Source: a virus. Taken from it: 44,178 nucleotides of DNA. Within the stretch, counting starts at the first letter, position 1; each line of letters starts with the position of its first letter. Shown here piece after piece: positions 30,800-38,989 of the stretch. The translations under genes and the position numbers were made by a program. The notes under the pieces were generated by a model. That model ran no database searches, was not told where the DNA came from, and saw only the letters and a list, made by a program, of their open reading frames with translations. The stretch lies in IMG/VR virus record IMGVR_UViG_3300023196_003765, positions 24,180-68,357 of that record; one strand, written 5' to 3'.

Positions 30800-31366
30800 A
30801 TGATTTTAGGAGTAGATATTTCAACCAGTATTACTGGTTTTGCTATTGTGGCTGATAATCAATTATTATATTATGATTCAATTGATTTAAGAAAGCAAAA
30901 AAATGTTTTTGATAAAACAGTTGCTATTAAAGAAAAAATATTAGACTTATACGAAATGTATCAATTGAACAATGAAGATAACCCAAGTTGGGGAGATTCA
31001 GAATATCCAATTCAACACATTTATATAGAACAGCCTTTTACATTTTTTAATTCTGGCGGCTCTTCTGCTAAAACAATGGCCACATTACAAAAATTTAATG
31101 GCATTGTTTCGTGGATTTTGTATGAAACTTTTGAAATTAAGCCAGAGTTTATTGGAGCTACATCTGCACGTAAGCAAGCTGGGATCAAAGTACCAAGAGG
31201 TCAAAAAGCCAAACAAGTGGTCTTACAACATTTGCTTGAAAATGAGCCAGCATTTAAAATTGAGTACACACGACACGGCAATCCAAAACCAGAATCTTAT
31301 GACAGAGCAGACGCAATTATAATTGCAAAAGCAGGTTTTAAAATTGAAAACAATAAAATGATATAA
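30800..31366 (+). CDS. RuvC-like Holliday-junction resolvase/endonuclease
   Basis: A 188-residue RNase H-fold nuclease of the RuvC group. Visible acidic active-site residues are D6 in ILGVDISTSITGFAI, E77 in IYIEQPF, and D168 plus D171 in YDRADAIIIAK at the C-terminus. This is the D-E-D-D set and order expected for RuvC-type enzymes, and the length is close to the usual 170-190 residues. In phages these enzymes cut branched DNA before packaging, as T4 endonuclease VII does. The primase and recombination genes nearby support a DNA-processing role. SD is GAGG at 30791-30794. Confidence 0.85.
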   Translation: MILGVDISTSITGFAIVADNQLLYYDSIDLRKQKNVFDKTVAIKEKILDLYEMYQLNNEDNPSWGDSEYPIQHIYIEQPFTFFNSGGSSAKTMATLQKFNGIVSWILYETFEIKPEFIGATSARKQAGIKVPRGQKAKQVVLQHLLENEPAFKIEYTRHGNPKPESYDRADAIIIAKAGFKIENNKMI

Positions 31367-31685: not shown

Positions 31686-31701
31686 TTTCATTGCAATGAA
31701 A
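31686..31701. promoter_or_regulatory. 16-bp perfect palindrome in the FKBP leader
   Basis: TTTCATTGCAATGAAA is its own reverse complement over all 16 bases. It lies at the predicted start of the mRNA and its last bases run into the SD sequence AAAGGAG. It could be a second operator, or fold as a 6-bp hairpin with a TGCA loop that exposes or hides the ribosome site. Confidence 0.45.
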
Positions 31702-31710
31702 GGAGAAAAA

Positions 31711-32280
31711 ATGCAAGCAACAAATGGAAGTACCGTAAGTGTACATTATGTAGGCACATTAGACAATGGTACCGAATTCGATAACTCTCGCGTCCGCGGC
31801 GAAACGTTACAGTTCGAACTCGGTTCAGGTCGTATGATCACTGGTTTTAATGATGCTGTGATCGGGATGAGTCCCGGCCAAACTAAAACAATCAATCTCG
31901 CCGCGGAGGAAGCTTATGGGATGCACAACCCAGACGCAACTGAAAAGGTCCCTCGACAAATGTTCGGCCCTGAGTTCGAATTCATTAAAGGAGGCACAGT
32001 AAGAGGCAATGGTCCTCATGGTGTGTTTTACGCAAAAATTTTGGGTTTCGATGAAGAGAATGTCGACCTTGATTTAAATCACCCACTTGCTGGTAAGGAT
32101 TTAACTTTTGAAATCGAGTTAGTTTCTGTTGATGGTGCACACCCAATCGCTAGTGATGAATCTTATAATTGGGATTTATCGATGAAAAAGGTTGAACTTT
32201 ATGAAATTGCCAAGGCCAAAGGCCTTAGTATCAATAGTAAGTCAACCAAGGCGCAAATTATTGAAGCGCTTGAAGCCTAA
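31711..32280 (+). CDS. FKBP/SlyD-type peptidyl-prolyl isomerase with C-terminal HeH/SAP-like domain
   Basis: A 189-residue prolyl cis-trans isomerase. The FKBP core is at residues 8-70 (VSVHYVGTLDNGTEFDNS, then FELGSGRMITGFNDAVIGM, then AAEEAYG) and is completed at 121-140 (LNHPLAGKDLTFEIELVSV). The insertion between these parts is the IF (insert-in-flap) chaperone domain of SlyD-type enzymes. The last 32 residues (MKKVELYEIAKAKGLSINS, KSTKAQIIEALEA) look like a HeH/SAP-type helix-extended-loop-helix domain, often nucleic-acid binding, and unexpected on a SlyD-like protein. An ATG at 31696 is in frame, but AAGGAG at 31699-31704 is correctly spaced only for 31711. The gene has its own promoter and a strong terminator. 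It looks slightly richer in G+C than neighbours (two CCGCGG sites), which may indicate transfer from a host. Confidence 0.85.
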   Translation: MQATNGSTVSVHYVGTLDNGTEFDNSRVRGETLQFELGSGRMITGFNDAVIGMSPGQTKTINLAAEEAYGMHNPDATEKVPRQMFGPEFEFIKGGTVRGNGPHGVFYAKILGFDEENVDLDLNHPLAGKDLTFEIELVSVDGAHPIASDESYNWDLSMKKVELYEIAKAKGLSINSKSTKAQIIEALEA

Positions 32281-32352: not shown

Positions 32353-33291
32353 ATGAACGAGAAAGAAGCTAGGAAAATTCTTTATGAAACGTTTGGAAAC
32401 TACTCAGACAAAGGTTCCGAGCTTCTTTTCGCGTGCCCGGCATGCGGTCACCACAAGCGTAAGTTCTCTATTAATCTGGATAAAAATGCTTTTAAGTGTT
32501 GGGTTTGTGATTATAGGGGTCGTAATATTAGGCGTACTATTAGACGTTATGGTTCGTTTGTGCAATTACAGAAATGGGACTCAATATCAGACAAAGCAGA
32601 TCTTGAAAGATTTGCTGAACTCTTTATGGAACCAATCGTTAGAGAAAACAAAACAAAAGTGGAATTCCCAAAAGAATTCGTAAGCCTTACTAATGATAAA
32701 ATTCCAGCTACGGGAGTATATGCAATAAAATACCTGCAAAAAAGAGGTATAACAAAATCTGATATTCTTAAATGGAAAATCGGATACTGTTTTGAAGGCG
32801 AATTTCGAAACAGAATCATTGTTCCATCTTTCGACGAAGAAGGCGATTGTAGCTACTTTATCGCTAGATCCTATACTGGTGACTCATATAAGTATAAAAA
32901 CCCAAGAGCATCGAAGGATGTAGTGTTTAACGAACTATTTATTAACTGGAATAAAGATTTAGTTTTAGTAGAAGGGGTTTTTGATGCACTGGTCGCAGGA
33001 AATGCTATTCCCATTTTGGGCTCAACACTCAGGTCTGGGTCAGACTTATTGCGAAAAATTGTACGAAACGACACCCCAATCTACATTGCACTCGATCCCG
33101 ATGCCGTTAAAAAAGAAAGACGGATTATTAGCATGTTGTTACGATATGATGTTGAACTTTATAAAATTAATGTTTCTGGGTACGAAGATATAGGCTCAAT
33201 GCCAAAAGACGTATTTGCTGAAAGAAAGAAAACAGCGTCTTTTATCGATAGAGATAACTATTTATTGCTAGATTTATTATCGGCAATCTAA
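32353..33291 (+). CDS. DNA primase, DnaG/T4 gp61-like (zinc ribbon plus TOPRIM)
   Basis: A 312-residue primase that makes RNA primers for lagging-strand synthesis, working with the replicative helicase. A zinc ribbon is formed by C28-x2-C31 (FACPACGHHK) and C49-x2-C52 (FKCWVCDYRG). The TOPRIM metal site is seen as E207 in LVLVEGVFDALVAG and D248/D250 in IYIALDPDA. T4 gp61 is 342 residues, so the length fits a minimal phage primase without a helicase domain. SD is GAGGG at 32345-32349 before ATG 32353. The tagged protein at 33293 starts one base after its stop. Confidence 0.85.
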   Translation: MNEKEARKILYETFGNYSDKGSELLFACPACGHHKRKFSINLDKNAFKCWVCDYRGRNIRRTIRRYGSFVQLQKWDSISDKADLERFAELFMEPIVRENKTKVEFPKEFVSLTNDKIPATGVYAIKYLQKRGITKSDILKWKIGYCFEGEFRNRIIVPSFDEEGDCSYFIARSYTGDSYKYKNPRASKDVVFNELFINWNKDLVLVEGVFDALVAGNAIPILGSTLRSGSDLLRKIVRNDTPIYIALDPDAVKKERRIISMLLRYDVELYKINVSGYEDIGSMPKDVFAERKKTASFIDRDNYLLLDLLSAI

Positions 33292-34143: not shown

Positions 34144-34172
34144 TTGACTTGGTTGTTGATAAGTGATATAAT
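34144..34172 (+). promoter_or_regulatory. Near-consensus sigma70 promoter
   Basis: TTGACT (34144-34149), 17-bp spacer, TATAAT (34167-34172): 5/6 and 6/6 matches at optimal spacing. It is the best promoter in the window. It drives a 31-residue ORF and, downstream, the Mre11-Rad50 fusion and possibly the operon to about 39 kb, since no terminator is seen before that. Confidence 0.85.
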
Positions 34173-34194
34173 AATGTTATAGGAGGGGATTACT

Positions 34195-34290
34195 ATGTTT
34201 CATTTTGCCATGGATACCATTGCGAAAGCACTTTTTATTTATATTGGTTATTATGGGTTTAGAACCCTTGCTTGGATTATGTTAAACTAA
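34195..34290 (+). CDS. 31-residue hydrophobic membrane peptide
   Basis: ATG 34195 to TAA 34288-34290 encodes 31 residues (MFHFAMDTIAKALFIYIGYY, then GFRTLAWIMLN). It has a strong SD, AGGAGGGG at 34181-34188, and sits right behind the near-consensus promoter. Most of it is one hydrophobic segment flanked by a few charged residues. The next gene starts 10 bases later with its own SD (TGGAG). It is too short to match any family by eye. The strong promoter plus SD argue for a real product, possibly an early membrane-active peptide; a leader with no function of its own is the alternative. Confidence 0.6.
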   Translation: MFHFAMDTIAKALFIYIGYYGFRTLAWIMLN

Positions 34291-34300
34291 TGGAGTTTTG

Positions 34301-37300
34301 ATGAAGTTTGCACACATTAGTGATACCCACATTAAGAATTTAAAGTATCACTACGAATACAAAGTAGTATTTGAACAGCTATATGAGACCTTGCGAGAGC
34401 AAAAAGTGGATTACATTGTTCACTGTGGAGATATAGCACACACAAAGACTCAAATTTCACCAGAATTTGTAGAGCTATGCTCGGACTTTTTTCGCAACTT
34501 AGCGATGATTGCCCCCACATATATTATATTAGGTAATCACGACGGTAACTTAAAGAATAGTAGCCGCCAAGATGCTTTAACACCAATTGTTGATGCACTG
34601 AATTTACCAGATTTATATTTGTTAAAAAATTCAGGTGAAACACACCTCGATAATAAATTTTGTTTAAATGTGTTATCGGTATTCGATAGAGACAACTGGT
34701 CTAGACCAACGGATCCGGATAAGATTAATATTGCCCTTTACCACGGTTCTATATCTAACTGCAAAACTGATATGAACTGGACCATGGAGCACGGCGAAGA
34801 TAGTATTGATATATTCAAGGACTTTGATTTTGCTATGTTAGGAGACATCCACCGGCGTCAGTTCTTGGACGATGAAGGTCGAGTGTGGTACGCTGGCTCG
34901 ACGGTTCAACAAAATCATGGCGAAACAAATGATAAAGGGATCCTAATATGGGAGATAAAAAATAAACATGATTGGGAAATTGAGCCGATTGTATTCGAAA
35001 ATCCAAAGCCGTTTATTACAATCCAACTCACTAGAAAAGGACGAATGCCAAAGAACACATCTGTTCCGACTGATGCTCGCTTGCGTGTCGTTAGTGATAA
35101 TAACTTGCCGCTTGATGTGATGAAACGCGCTGTCGATATTGCCAAGCACAGATTTAAACCGGAAAGCATTTCGTTTCTCAATAGGGCGTCTGGTATCCGA
35201 GGCAATGTAGAAAATTTAGCCAGCGGCTTAAAAACCGAAAATCTGCGTGATTCCTCTGTTCAAGAAGAGTTAATTAATGAATACTTAATAGACTATCAAG
35301 TAGATGGCAATACTTTACAAAAGATATACGAATTAAATAAAAAATATAATAAGTTAGTTGAAGATAGCGAGGATATTTCTAGAAACATAAATTGGAAAAT
35401 AGCAAGTTTTGAATTTGATAATCTTTTTAATTATGGAGAGAATAACAAGGTTGGCTTTGAAGAGCTAGCCGGCATTGTCGGAGTTTTTGGTAAAAACTTT
35501 TCAGGCAAAAGCTCAATCGTCGATGGTATTTTATGGACATTATTTAATTCAACTTCAAAAAATGAGCGAAAGAATCTCAATGTTATCAACCAGAATAAAC
35601 AATCATGCCGCGGCAAATTAATAATAGAGATTGGTGATAAATCATATACTGTTGAAAGATCAGCAACAAAATATACCAAACGGTTAAAAGGTGAAGAAAC
35701 GCTTGAAGCTAAAACAGATTTAAATTTTGAAGTGTATGATCCAATTACTGATACGACAACATCACTAAACGGTCTTACGAGAAACTTAACAGATGCAAAC
35801 ATTCGCAAAAAGTTTGGTGCTCTTGAAGACTTTTCGGTATCATCTTTATCATCTCAACATGGTGCACTTATTTTTATTGATGAAGGTTCCACGCGAAGAA
35901 AAGAAATTATAGCTAAGTTTCTAGATTTAGAATTTTTTGATCGCAAATTTCGACTTTCAAAAGAAAACTCAGTTGATTTAAAAGGTGCTCTAAAAAGATT
36001 AGAAAGTAAAAATTATGATGAGGAATTAGAGCAATCTAAAACATCTCTTGAAACTGCAAAAAATGAAATGTTTAAACACCAAAGCACATGCGAATCATTA
36101 CGTCTTGTATTGGAAAAGCTATCAAATACATCAAGTGAAATACAATTAAAAATAGATTCAATACCAGCGGAAATCATTGATGTTGTTGATGTAGAAAAAA
36201 CCATTAAATTAAAGAAAAACCAAATCACATCACTGGGTTTCAAAAATAAAGAAATAGAAAATGTTTTAAAAGTCAAGCAAAAATTTTATAAAAAATTAGC
36301 GGACTTTATAGATGAATTTGATTTGTCTTATTATGAAGATTTGCAAAGACAAATTAATTTAAAAAATGAAGATCTTAAAAACTATGAAAATAAGATTGAT
36401 AAACTAATAGATAATCACAGCGATATTCTAAATAAAGAAAACTTGTTAAACGATATACCGTGTGGTACAAAGTTTCCATCTTGCAAATTTATTCGCGATG
36501 CGCATGTTGCTGTTGCCAATAAAACTAATATTGAAAAAGAGCAACAAGTTACATTAAAATTTATTGATGAAATTAAAGGATCAATCAACAAATTAGATCC
36601 AGCAAATGTTGAAGATCAGCTGGGTAGATATAGCAACATCGAAAACAGTAAACACAAAGTATCTTCGGAAATTGCAGATCTTAATTTAGAGACTGAAAAA
36701 AACAAAAATCTTGTACACACAGTATCATCAGAATTAATTCAACTTCAAAAAAAGAGAGATGAATATGAAGAAAACAAAGAAGCTATTGAAAATCTTGAAT
36801 CACTTGTATCAGAGCTTAATAAATGTCACTACAAAATCAAACAAACAAAAAACAAAATAGAAACTTGTGATACCAAAACACTTGAACTTGTTAAATCAGT
36901 TGGCTCTTATGAACAAAAAATCGAAACTATTCAAGAACAAAAGAAAGAGTACCAAGAATTACAAACTGAGTTTGCTGCATATGATTTATATATGCAATGC
37001 ATGCACCCTAACGGAATTGCATATGACATCATTAAAAAGAAAATACCAATTATTAATGAAGAAATTGCCAAGGTTTTAGCTAATATTGTAGACTTTGAAA
37101 TTTTCTTTGAAGCTACCGGAAACAAATTTGATATTTTTATTAAACACCCTAGGTATGATGAGAGGCCTATTGAAATGGCCTCCGGTGCAGAAAAATCACT
37201 AGCGGCAATGGCTATACGCTTAGCGTTGCTAGGTGTATCTTCTTTGCCTAAGTCTGATTTGTTCGTTTTAGATGAGCCCGGGACTGCTTTGGATGAAGAC

Positions 37301-37450
37301 AATATGTCGGGTTTTATTCAGATTTTAGAACTAATTAAGGTATACTTCAAAAATGTTTTGCTGATTTCTCATCTTGATTCGCTCAAAGATTGTGTTGACA
37401 TGCAAATTGTTATTGATAAAAAAGCAGGATATGCAAGGGTCAACCAATAA
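34301..37450 (+). CDS. Single-chain Mre11-Rad50 (SbcD-SbcC, T4 gp47-gp46) fusion
   Basis: A 1049-residue fusion of both subunits of the recombination nuclease that processes DNA ends. The Mre11 phosphodiesterase half (about 1-360) has all metal motifs: D8-x-H10 (DTH), D44 (CGDIAH), N79/H80/D81 (GNHD), H148 (YHGS) and D182/H184 (GDIH). The Rad50 half (about 365-1049) has Walker A G397-S404 (GKNFSGKS), Q-loop SLSSQHGAL, a short coiled-coil region of about 560-890, signature ASGAEKSLA (960-968), Walker B/D-loop LFVLDEPGTALDED (987-1000) and H-loop LISHLD. Two cysteines, C721 and C728 (CGTKFPSC), sit at the apex where Rad50 has its CxxC zinc hook. T4 encodes gp47 and gp46 separately. The ATG at 34301 is chosen over an in-frame TTG at 34298 because of SD spacing. 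Confidence 0.9.
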   Translation: MKFAHISDTHIKNLKYHYEYKVVFEQLYETLREQKVDYIVHCGDIAHTKTQISPEFVELCSDFFRNLAMIAPTYIILGNHDGNLKNSSRQDALTPIVDALNLPDLYLLKNSGETHLDNKFCLNVLSVFDRDNWSRPTDPDKINIALYHGSISNCKTDMNWTMEHGEDSIDIFKDFDFAMLGDIHRRQFLDDEGRVWYAGSTVQQNHGETNDKGILIWEIKNKHDWEIEPIVFENPKPFITIQLTRKGRMPKNTSVPTDARLRVVSDNNLPLDVMKRAVDIAKHRFKPESISFLNRASGIRGNVENLASGLKTENLRDSSVQEELINEYLIDYQVDGNTLQKIYELNKKYNKLVEDSEDISRNINWKIASFEFDNLFNYGENNKVGFEELAGIVGVFGKNFSGKSSIVDGILWTLFNSTSKNERKNLNVINQNKQSCRGKLIIEIGDKSYTVERSATKYTKRLKGEETLEAKTDLNFEVYDPITDTTTSLNGLTRNLTDANIRKKFGALEDFSVSSLSSQHGALIFIDEGSTRRKEIIAKFLDLEFFDRKFRLSKENSVDLKGALKRLESKNYDEELEQSKTSLETAKNEMFKHQSTCESLRLVLEKLSNTSSEIQLKIDSIPAEIIDVVDVEKTIKLKKNQITSLGFKNKEIENVLKVKQKFYKKLADFIDEFDLSYYEDLQRQINLKNEDLKNYENKIDKLIDNHSDILNKENLLNDIPCGTKFPSCKFIRDAHVAVANKTNIEKEQQVTLKFIDEIKGSINKLDPANVEDQLGRYSNIENSKHKVSSEIADLNLETEKNKNLVHTVSSELIQLQKKRDEYEENKEAIENLESLVSELNKCHYKIKQTKNKIETCDTKTLELVKSVGSYEQKIETIQEQKKEYQELQTEFAAYDLYMQCMHPNGIAYDIIKKKIPIINEEIAKVLANIVDFEIFFEATGNKFDIFIKHPRYDERPIEMASGAEKSLAAMAIRLALLGVSSLPKSDLFVLDEPGTALDEDNMSGFIQILELIKVYFKNVLLISHLDSLKDCVDMQIVIDKKAGYARVNQ

Positions 37451-37849: not shown

Positions 37850-38989
37850 ATGTCAGACGAAAACGATAACAACGAATTTGATTTTCTGCCTCCCGCAGAA
37901 CCACCTCCCGCGTTTGCGCAGGAAAAAGACAGTTACCACGAAGAAGTAGATGCAGAAGATTTCGGTATGGTTGAAGACTTCGGATTACAGATGGAATACT
38001 CTGATGAAGATTTACTCCCCGAGAATACAGCACCCTCATCTATCAATGTTGGTTTTGTCGGTGTCGGCGGTGGAGGCAATAAAATGGCGAATGCGTTTAT
38101 TGAATTAGGTTTCAACAAAACGCTACTCGTAAATTCAACAGGTAAAGACATTCCAAAGAATGTAGAAGAGGATCACGTTGTCCTCATCCCCGATTCAGAT
38201 GGGATTGGAAAAAACGTAGAATATGGAAAAGAGGTTTTAAGTCAAAATGGTGCGATTGTTGAAGATGCCCTGCGTATCAAACTCGGTAAAGTTGATTGGT
38301 TATTCGTCCTTGCTGGCGGTGGCGGTGGTACCGGTAGTAGTGTTACCGCTTTGCACCCTGTCTTTGAGCGTTACATGCGCTCTGTGCAATCGAGTGGCAA
38401 AGTCATTTACATAGTTTCGTGGCCAACAGCACAAGAAAATCTTAATCCTACAATTGCTCGCAATGCATTAACATTAGCAAACGATGTTGCTAAGCATCCG
38501 CATATCATTTTAGATAACGAACGCGCCACACGTTTATTGCGCGGCAGAATCGGCATGCTCGGCATGTACCCTGTCGCCAACACAACTTTTGCTAAGTCAC
38601 TTGCCCAAGTGTTAAAACTCTCCACTGAGGACTCACCGATCCAATCTTTCGATAGCAAGGATTTGGAAACATGTTTGGGCAATGACGGCCGCGCTTTTAT
38701 GGGCTCGACAATGATAAAGGACCCAAATACTGCAAAGCTTGGATCGGTGATCCTTCATAACTGCATGAACAGGTCAGCGTGCCCCCCACCGAAGGGTAAG
38801 GCCGCAGCAGGTTCATTGGTTTTGGTAGTCTCGGAAGAGATGGTGGCTGACCCCAAAGTCAGTAAGAATATTGAGTCGGCAATCGCCTATGTCGGCGGTC
38901 GATGCGAGACACTTTTCTCTGGCGTTTATGTCAGAAAGAATGTGCCCGGATTGATTGCGATACTAAGCATGAATGGATTAGCAACATGA
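37850..38989 (+). CDS. FtsZ/tubulin-family GTPase homologue
   Basis: A 379-residue member of the tubulin/FtsZ superfamily, which polymerises on GTP. The N-terminal nucleotide loop is GFVGVGGGGNKMANAF (residues 68-83), with the T3-like loop LLVNSTGKD (92-100) after it. The G-box is LAGGGGGTGSS (154-164), matching the tubulin signature GGGTG[ST]. The T7 synergy loop FDSKDLETCLGNDG (267-280) keeps both acids of FtsZ's NxDxxD (D268, D271), although the Asn is Ser. The C-terminus (LFSGVYVRKNVPGLIAILS) matches the last strands. An acidic 64-residue extension precedes the core. Known phage relatives are PhuZ and TubZ. GTPase activity looks possible; filament formation is inferred. Its stop overlaps the next ATG. 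Confidence 0.85.
   Translation: MSDENDNNEFDFLPPAEPPPAFAQEKDSYHEEVDAEDFGMVEDFGLQMEYSDEDLLPENTAPSSINVGFVGVGGGGNKMANAFIELGFNKTLLVNSTGKDIPKNVEEDHVVLIPDSDGIGKNVEYGKEVLSQNGAIVEDALRIKLGKVDWLFVLAGGGGGTGSSVTALHPVFERYMRSVQSSGKVIYIVSWPTAQENLNPTIARNALTLANDVAKHPHIILDNERATRLLRGRIGMLGMYPVANTTFAKSLAQVLKLSTEDSPIQSFDSKDLETCLGNDGRAFMGSTMIKDPNTAKLGSVILHNCMNRSACPPPKGKAAAGSLVLVVSEEMVADPKVSKNIESAIAYVGGRCETLFSGVYVRKNVPGLIAILSMNGLAT

Follow-up and report, generated by a model that had tools for sequence, protein, structure and literature searches.

A Mre11-Rad50 fusion in a single polypeptide, encoded by a myovirus-like phage and its relatives, with two alternating hook types

We analyzed a window of 44,178 nucleotides, meaning the whole stretch of DNA considered here, which covers positions 24180-68357 of a 68,357-base virus record (IMGVR_UViG_3300023196_003765). 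The presence of a baseplate wedge protein together with a large terminase subunit indicates a tailed, myovirus-like phage. The gene under study and two genes upstream of it are as follows:

30800-31366, plus strand: RuvC-like Holliday junction resolvase (PHROG 159/827)
32353-33291, plus strand: DNA primase (PHROG 47, 7e-44); a primase gene also precedes the fusion of Microcystis phage Mel-JY01
34301-37450, plus strand: Mre11-Rad50 (SbcD-SbcC) fusion gene, 1049 aa, assigned from domain matches and homologs

Between the resolvase and primase genes lies a gene for an FKBP-type peptidyl-prolyl isomerase (31696-32280; PF00254, 4e-21). Just upstream of the fusion gene is a 31-codon ORF with a strong ribosome site (34195-34290), and in Mel-JY01, too, a small ORF separates the primase gene from the fusion gene. 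Positions 34144-34290 hold a sigma-70-like promoter match (TTGACT-17-TATAAT with TG, 11/12), promoter-like matches in total being no more frequent than in shuffled sequences. Right after the fusion, positions 37850-38989 encode an FtsZ/tubulin-like GTPase (PF00091, 6e-8; FtsZ structures, 2e-11), which had no match among 50,697 phage records but matched 145 IMG/VR stretches, with 86-99% identity in the top 80 of these; this GTPase is far more conserved than the adjoining fusion protein. At least five window proteins (starts 33293, 37450, 40404, 40881, and 43490) carry a similar N-terminal motif, MK(I/L)(T/K/S)(E/K)SxL..II/ILxEE, which is perhaps a common targeting signal, for example for head packaging.

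An initial annotation had proposed that Mre11 and Rad50 are joined here in one stop-free frame of 1049 residues, and ORF, Pfam, and PHROG evidence bears this out. The frame at 34301-37450 starts with ATG, has GGAG upstream, and runs for 1049 codons without an internal stop, with a Metallophos/SbcD domain followed by an SbcC ATPase. Pfam assigns residues 1-162 to Metallophos (4e-14) and 374-589 to AAA_23 (2e-6, above cut-off), and gives an SMC_N match over residues 370-1013 (1e-7) that lies below the SMC_N cut-off. PHROG assigns residues 1-364 to an SbcD-like protein (9e-32) and 337-1048 to an SbcC-like protein (1e-44). By sequence match, the N-terminal half resembles T. maritima Mre11 and the Rad50 half resembles archaeal Rad50 structures (5f3w, 3aux, 3qku), and Pfam, structure matches, and a structure model place the ABC ATPase lobes on either side of an antiparallel coiled coil. 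We therefore consider it confirmed, at the level of sequence, that the window protein is a Mre11-Rad50 fusion in a single polypeptide. Its parts are listed below, n = 57 being the set of distinct full-length proteins that we compared:

34301-35005, plus strand: Mre11 phosphoesterase (nuclease) domain, approximately residues 1-235 (PF00149; fold match to 7dog, 3thn, 4tug, 1ii7)
34322-34330, plus strand: metal motif I, D8-x-H10 (56/57, one alignment gap)
34427-34441, plus strand: metal motif II, G43-D44-x-x-H47 (invariant, n = 57)
34532-34543, plus strand: metal motif III, G78-N79-H80-D81 (N79, H80, and D81 invariant, n = 57)
34742-34744, plus strand: motif IV, H148 (invariant, n = 57)
34841-34852, plus strand: motif V, G181-D182-I-H184, GDxH for GHxH (invariant, n = 57)
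35006-35185, plus strand: Mre11 capping region, approximately residues 236-295 (AlphaFold2 model)
35252-35368, plus strand: Mre11 helix-loop-helix (Rad50-coil-binding) region, residues 318-356 (AlphaFold2 model)
35369-35392, plus strand: fusion junction, approximately residues 357-364 (R361 and N362 invariant, then invariant W365)
35393-35929, plus strand: Rad50 N-terminal ATPase lobe, residues 365-543 (Pfam AAA_23 at 374-589)
35489-35512, plus strand: Walker A, GKNFSGKS, residues 397-404 (G402-K403-S404 invariant, n = 57)
35930-36451, plus strand: ascending coiled-coil arm, approximately residues 544-717 (long helices in the model)
36461-36484, plus strand: hook, C721-GTKFPS-C728, of C-x6-C type (apex in the model; conserved Cys)
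36485-37003, plus strand: descending coiled-coil arm, approximately residues 729-901 (model)
37004-37447, plus strand: Rad50 C-terminal ATPase lobe, residues 902-1049 (Rad50 structures 5f3w, 3aux, 3qku)
37181-37192, plus strand: ABC signature, S961-G-A-E964 (S961, G962, and E964 invariant, n = 57)
37259-37294, plus strand: Walker B and D-loop, LFVLDEPGTALD, residues 987-998 (D991-E992 and D998 invariant, n = 57)
37370-37372, plus strand: H-loop, H1024 (invariant, n = 57)

The claim that all Rad50 ATPase motifs occur in the frame holds: the P-loop is complete, the signature and Walker B halves are both present, and the residues marked above for Walker A, signature, Walker B, D-loop, and H-loop are invariant in the 57 proteins, as is Q519. 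The parallel claim for the Mre11 metal motifs stands for every ligand but one, since D182 takes the place of the first His of GHxH (His206 of P. furiosus Mre11). The metal and ATPase residues are the same in the whole set, with one alignment gap at D8/H10 as the sole exception.

We used 23 family members to build an AlphaFold2 model (mean pLDDT 76.5, pTM 0.44). Low pTM is usual for a long coiled-coil protein; at this value the packing of head against nuclease, and of the domains in general, is not fixed by the model. The chain folds into a phosphoesterase, a capping region (strands 238-242 and 260-265, helix 271-285, strand 289-294), a helix-loop-helix at 318-356 (helices 318-328 and 336-356), a short junction, two ATPase lobes, and two long helical arms. 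Cap and helix-loop-helix are thus kept between nuclease and ATPase, and the hook forms a turn at the apex (718-728), between helices 675-717 and 729-739. Foldseek matched the model to Mre11/SbcD (7dog, 3thn, 4tug, 1ii7) and Rad50/SMC structures, and also to Smc5/6, condensin, and Lamassu/Wadjet-type SMCs. These last matches, together with the replacement of GHxH by GDxH in the metal site, could be taken to mean that the protein bridges or tethers DNA in the manner of an SMC, its nuclease being inactive or incidental. We regard this as quite improbable, given that none of the other metal and transition-state residues varies (n = 57) and that the same D for H is found in Mimivirus R555 (PMC3175470) and in the unfused enzyme of Vibrio phage PG07 (GDLH).

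We scanned IMG/VR, where 28 loci with relatives were found, the full-length ones being fused, and a second scan that used the neighboring tubulin-like gene as bait yielded many further relatives. The comparison set of 57 distinct full-length proteins comes from many assemblies and includes those of the window and of Mel-JY01; all 57 are encoded in a single uninterrupted frame. The segment around the junction (residues 336-373) measures 38 residues in 56 of the 57, with R361, N362, and W365 invariant. In comparisons of relatives, the catalytic parts have a pN/pS of 0.01-0.18, the junction 0.00-0.25, and the coil 0.21-0.68; purifying selection thus runs through both halves and is strong across the junction. 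The single frame, the constant junction, and the low pN/pS together argue that the protein is kept as one functional chain. The initial annotation had placed a linker near residue 360 that would tether the nuclease to the ATPase. Its position agrees with a junction at approximately 357-364, but a loose tether does not fit, and we read this short segment of constant length as a structural joint. An assembly or sequencing error might also produce such a frame, considering that unfused phage relatives encode SbcD directly followed by SbcC and that a lost stop would mimic a fusion. The 57 fused proteins from many assemblies, the isolate genome of Mel-JY01 among them, and the conserved length and residues of the junction make this exceedingly improbable for the window; for the clade, the 57 distinct fused proteins and the junction pN/pS rule out both such an error and chance.

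Relatives with separate Mre11 and Rad50 genes at this locus would have spoken against the fusion, and none was seen among those with sequence covering the locus; the loci that lacked a fusion match in the tubulin-bait scan extend no more than approximately 1 kb upstream of the tubulin-like gene. Nor was a separate Mre11/Rad50 pair found elsewhere in the 68,357-base record or in the near-complete relatives (187-196 kb). Each of these relatives, and Mel-JY01, has one AAA_23 protein, which lies inside the fused ORF, and one Metallophos protein, also in the fused ORF; a single record has an additional 246-aa Metallophos frame at another position. Because the only AAA_23 match and the main Metallophos match fall in the fused ORF, the fusion takes the place of the usual pair. 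One RecA-like recombinase is present in each near-complete relative and in Mel-JY01; the window's own 68-kb record, a genome fragment, gave no RecA match. A further relative was seen in CP070664.1 (L233, 5956-8049), where a 698-aa frame is 59% identical to residues 2-626 of the window protein and does not contain the C-terminal half; it lies in a 2.8-Mb WOR-3 MAG chromosome and is either integrated phage DNA or the product of a chimeric assembly.

The initial annotation presented two proteins as the norm for T4 and bacteria. Separate pairs do exist, but fusions have been in print since 2011, when the same domain order was reported for Mimivirus R555, five bacteria, six eukaryotes, and Bacillus phage 0305phi8-36, with further examples on plasmids (Yoshida, Claverie, and Ogata, 2011; PMC3175470). 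Marine R555-like sequences were described there as abundant, mostly viral, and located near phage primases and endonucleases, and the fusions as polyphyletic under wider sampling. In the T. maritima complex, the Mre11 C-terminus lies approximately 28 A from the Rad50 N-terminus, a gap that a linker was proposed to fit (PMC3175470) and with which a Mre11-then-Rad50 order agrees. Our literature searches returned nothing later on Mre11/Rad50 fusion than this paper, and in the accessible part of a 2021 jumbo-phage review, SbcC and SbcD are near-universal and no SbcC-SbcD fusion is described. This kind of fusion has thus been known since 2011, and the window clade is a large, intact, phage-borne set of its members. 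Given the primase just upstream, we infer that the clade is very likely part of the marine viral sequences of that study.

By its published description (PMC3175470), R555 shares with the window protein the order Mre11 then Rad50 in one chain and the Asp for P. furiosus His206, and the R555 group retains a region of cap/HLH length and a short linker; R555 differs in its length (1351 aa) and in a longer coiled coil. The fusion of Bacillus phage 0305phi8-36, at that time the only one known from a phage, is missing a P-loop segment as well as the cap/HLH part, whereas the window protein is intact. The search for similar phage fusions that the annotation had called for was productive: besides the 57 proteins, it returned Tenacibaculum phage pT24 (a 'DNA repair' protein of 1310 aa) and uncultured phage LR756501 (1202 aa), both single-chain fusions, which are only 26-27% identical over the matched part, have CXXC hooks, and form a separate deep branch. 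Within the set of 57, the protein of Mel-JY01 (WWT39521.1, whose annotation reads simply 'AAA domain containing protein') is a fused, full-length match with 30% identity, but it has a CXXC-type hook and belongs to a different tree lineage. T4-type gp47/gp46 and other phage SbcD/SbcC pairs resemble the window protein in their two domains, gene order, and catalytic motifs, and differ in being two polypeptides; in most of the unfused phage pairs, the two genes are neighbors and follow the order of the fusion, and five of the six sampled (T4 itself not sampled) have CXXC hooks of CPxC type. In a 26-protein tree, the 20 fused or secondarily split proteins are separated from six unfused phage pairs with branch support of 100/100. 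With just six unfused pairs, long branches, and the polyphyly reported earlier (PMC3175470), we do not claim a single origin of fusion.

Some relatives carry the gene in two pieces, namely L120, L121, L133, L166, L186, L221, L243-L247, L251, and L253. The break lies within Mre11, directly 3' of GDIH, and the Mre11-Rad50 junction stays fused, the first piece being the metal-binding core (218-235 aa) and the second the remaining Mre11 with Rad50 (approximately 860-885 aa). The pieces mostly overlap briefly, start codon on stop codon (ATGA or GTGA, for example); in L121, 208 bases of other sequence lie at the break. On the tree, the three split versions sampled fall inside the fused group, next to fused L116 as their sister (100/99), which makes the split a secondary event. 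The GDIHK motif is also where the fusion gene of LR756508, a 484-kb phage, is interrupted: a 305-aa ORF with a TnsA-like endonuclease domain lies there (L031, 6665-7582), and Rfam gave no intron match for this copy. The split may plausibly have arisen through insertion of an endonuclease gene that fragmented the fusion gene; such a split appears to be unreported in the literature that we searched. Another split-gene copy (L252, 2866-5613; compare L251) has two in-frame stops at approximately 3556 and 4264, through decay, sequencing error, or recoding. As these relatives make two proteins from the fusion locus, the fused chain might itself be a precursor from which proteolysis or internal translation initiation also releases free Rad50 or Mre11. 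Their cut, however, is within Mre11, the window protein has no Met between residues 340 and 400, and the junction is kept in length and sequence, unlike a disposable linker; such processing is thus unlikely.

The hook of the window protein reads PCGTKFPSCKFI, with two conserved apex cysteines spaced as C721-x6-C728 and no CXXC, the hook motif described as conserved from archaea to viruses (PMC5093744, PMC9569753). Among the 57 proteins, 34 are of C-x6-C type (x6 or x7) and 23 are YDPxCxxC, with no intermediates seen; C728 is present in 57/57, and C721 in 34/34 of the C-x6-C type. A scan for the C-x6-C pattern returned 119 stretches, a number that is not a frequency because the pattern requires both cysteines. 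Outside the fusions, Moorella phage MTATph1 has an unfused SbcC whose hook is C-x7-C. On a tree of the non-coil columns (quick SH-aLRT), the hook type switches 10 times, at least 8 of them forced by well-supported branches, although recombination within the catalytic parts could alter this count. L059 and L076, for example, are 97% identical over residues 1-550 and only about half identical around the hook, and their hook types differ; L007 and L008 show the same pattern of alike catalytic parts and unlike hooks, and L024 and L042 are another switching pair. The hook tip most similar to that of the window protein is found in L091, which by its catalytic part clusters with CXXC-type relatives. 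The simplest reading of these sequence patterns is that arm tips are exchanged by recombination. The alternation of C-x6-C and CXXC hooks appears to be unreported in the literature that we searched.

From sequence, model, and analogy, we consider it highly probable that the window protein is the single-chain Mre11-Rad50 enzyme of a myovirus, an ATP-gated DNA-end nuclease for recombination-dependent replication. Two chains would presumably pair through their Mre11 faces, Rad50 heads, and/or hook to form an M2R2-like complex that would hold every nuclease covalently to one ATPase, at a 1:1 ratio. ATP binding would shut the heads and cover the nuclease, and hydrolysis together with DNA-end binding would open the complex for limited cutting. 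The resected 3' end could then pass to the phage RecA-like recombinase, acting with the primase and the Holliday junction resolvase. T4 gp46/gp47 serve recombination-dependent replication and repair, and the outcome proposed here would be the same.

The fusion itself is unsurprising, and the hook dichotomy and the split inside Mre11 are more useful to specialists. A Mre11-Rad50 that naturally comes as one chain, its ratio fixed at 1:1, would be handy for structural and single-molecule work on ATP gating of the nuclease, and the swap of CXXC for C-x6-C in otherwise near-identical proteins makes the specificity of hook dimerization directly testable. We tentatively suggest, while thinking it less likely than not, that the hook tip is an exchangeable specificity cassette, C-x6-C (PCGxxFPxCKFI) or CXXC (YDPxCxYCxxNxFVK), swapped by recombination, in which only like hooks would pair. 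If so, hook cassettes would prevent the mixing of end-processing complexes between co-infecting phages, or between phage and host.
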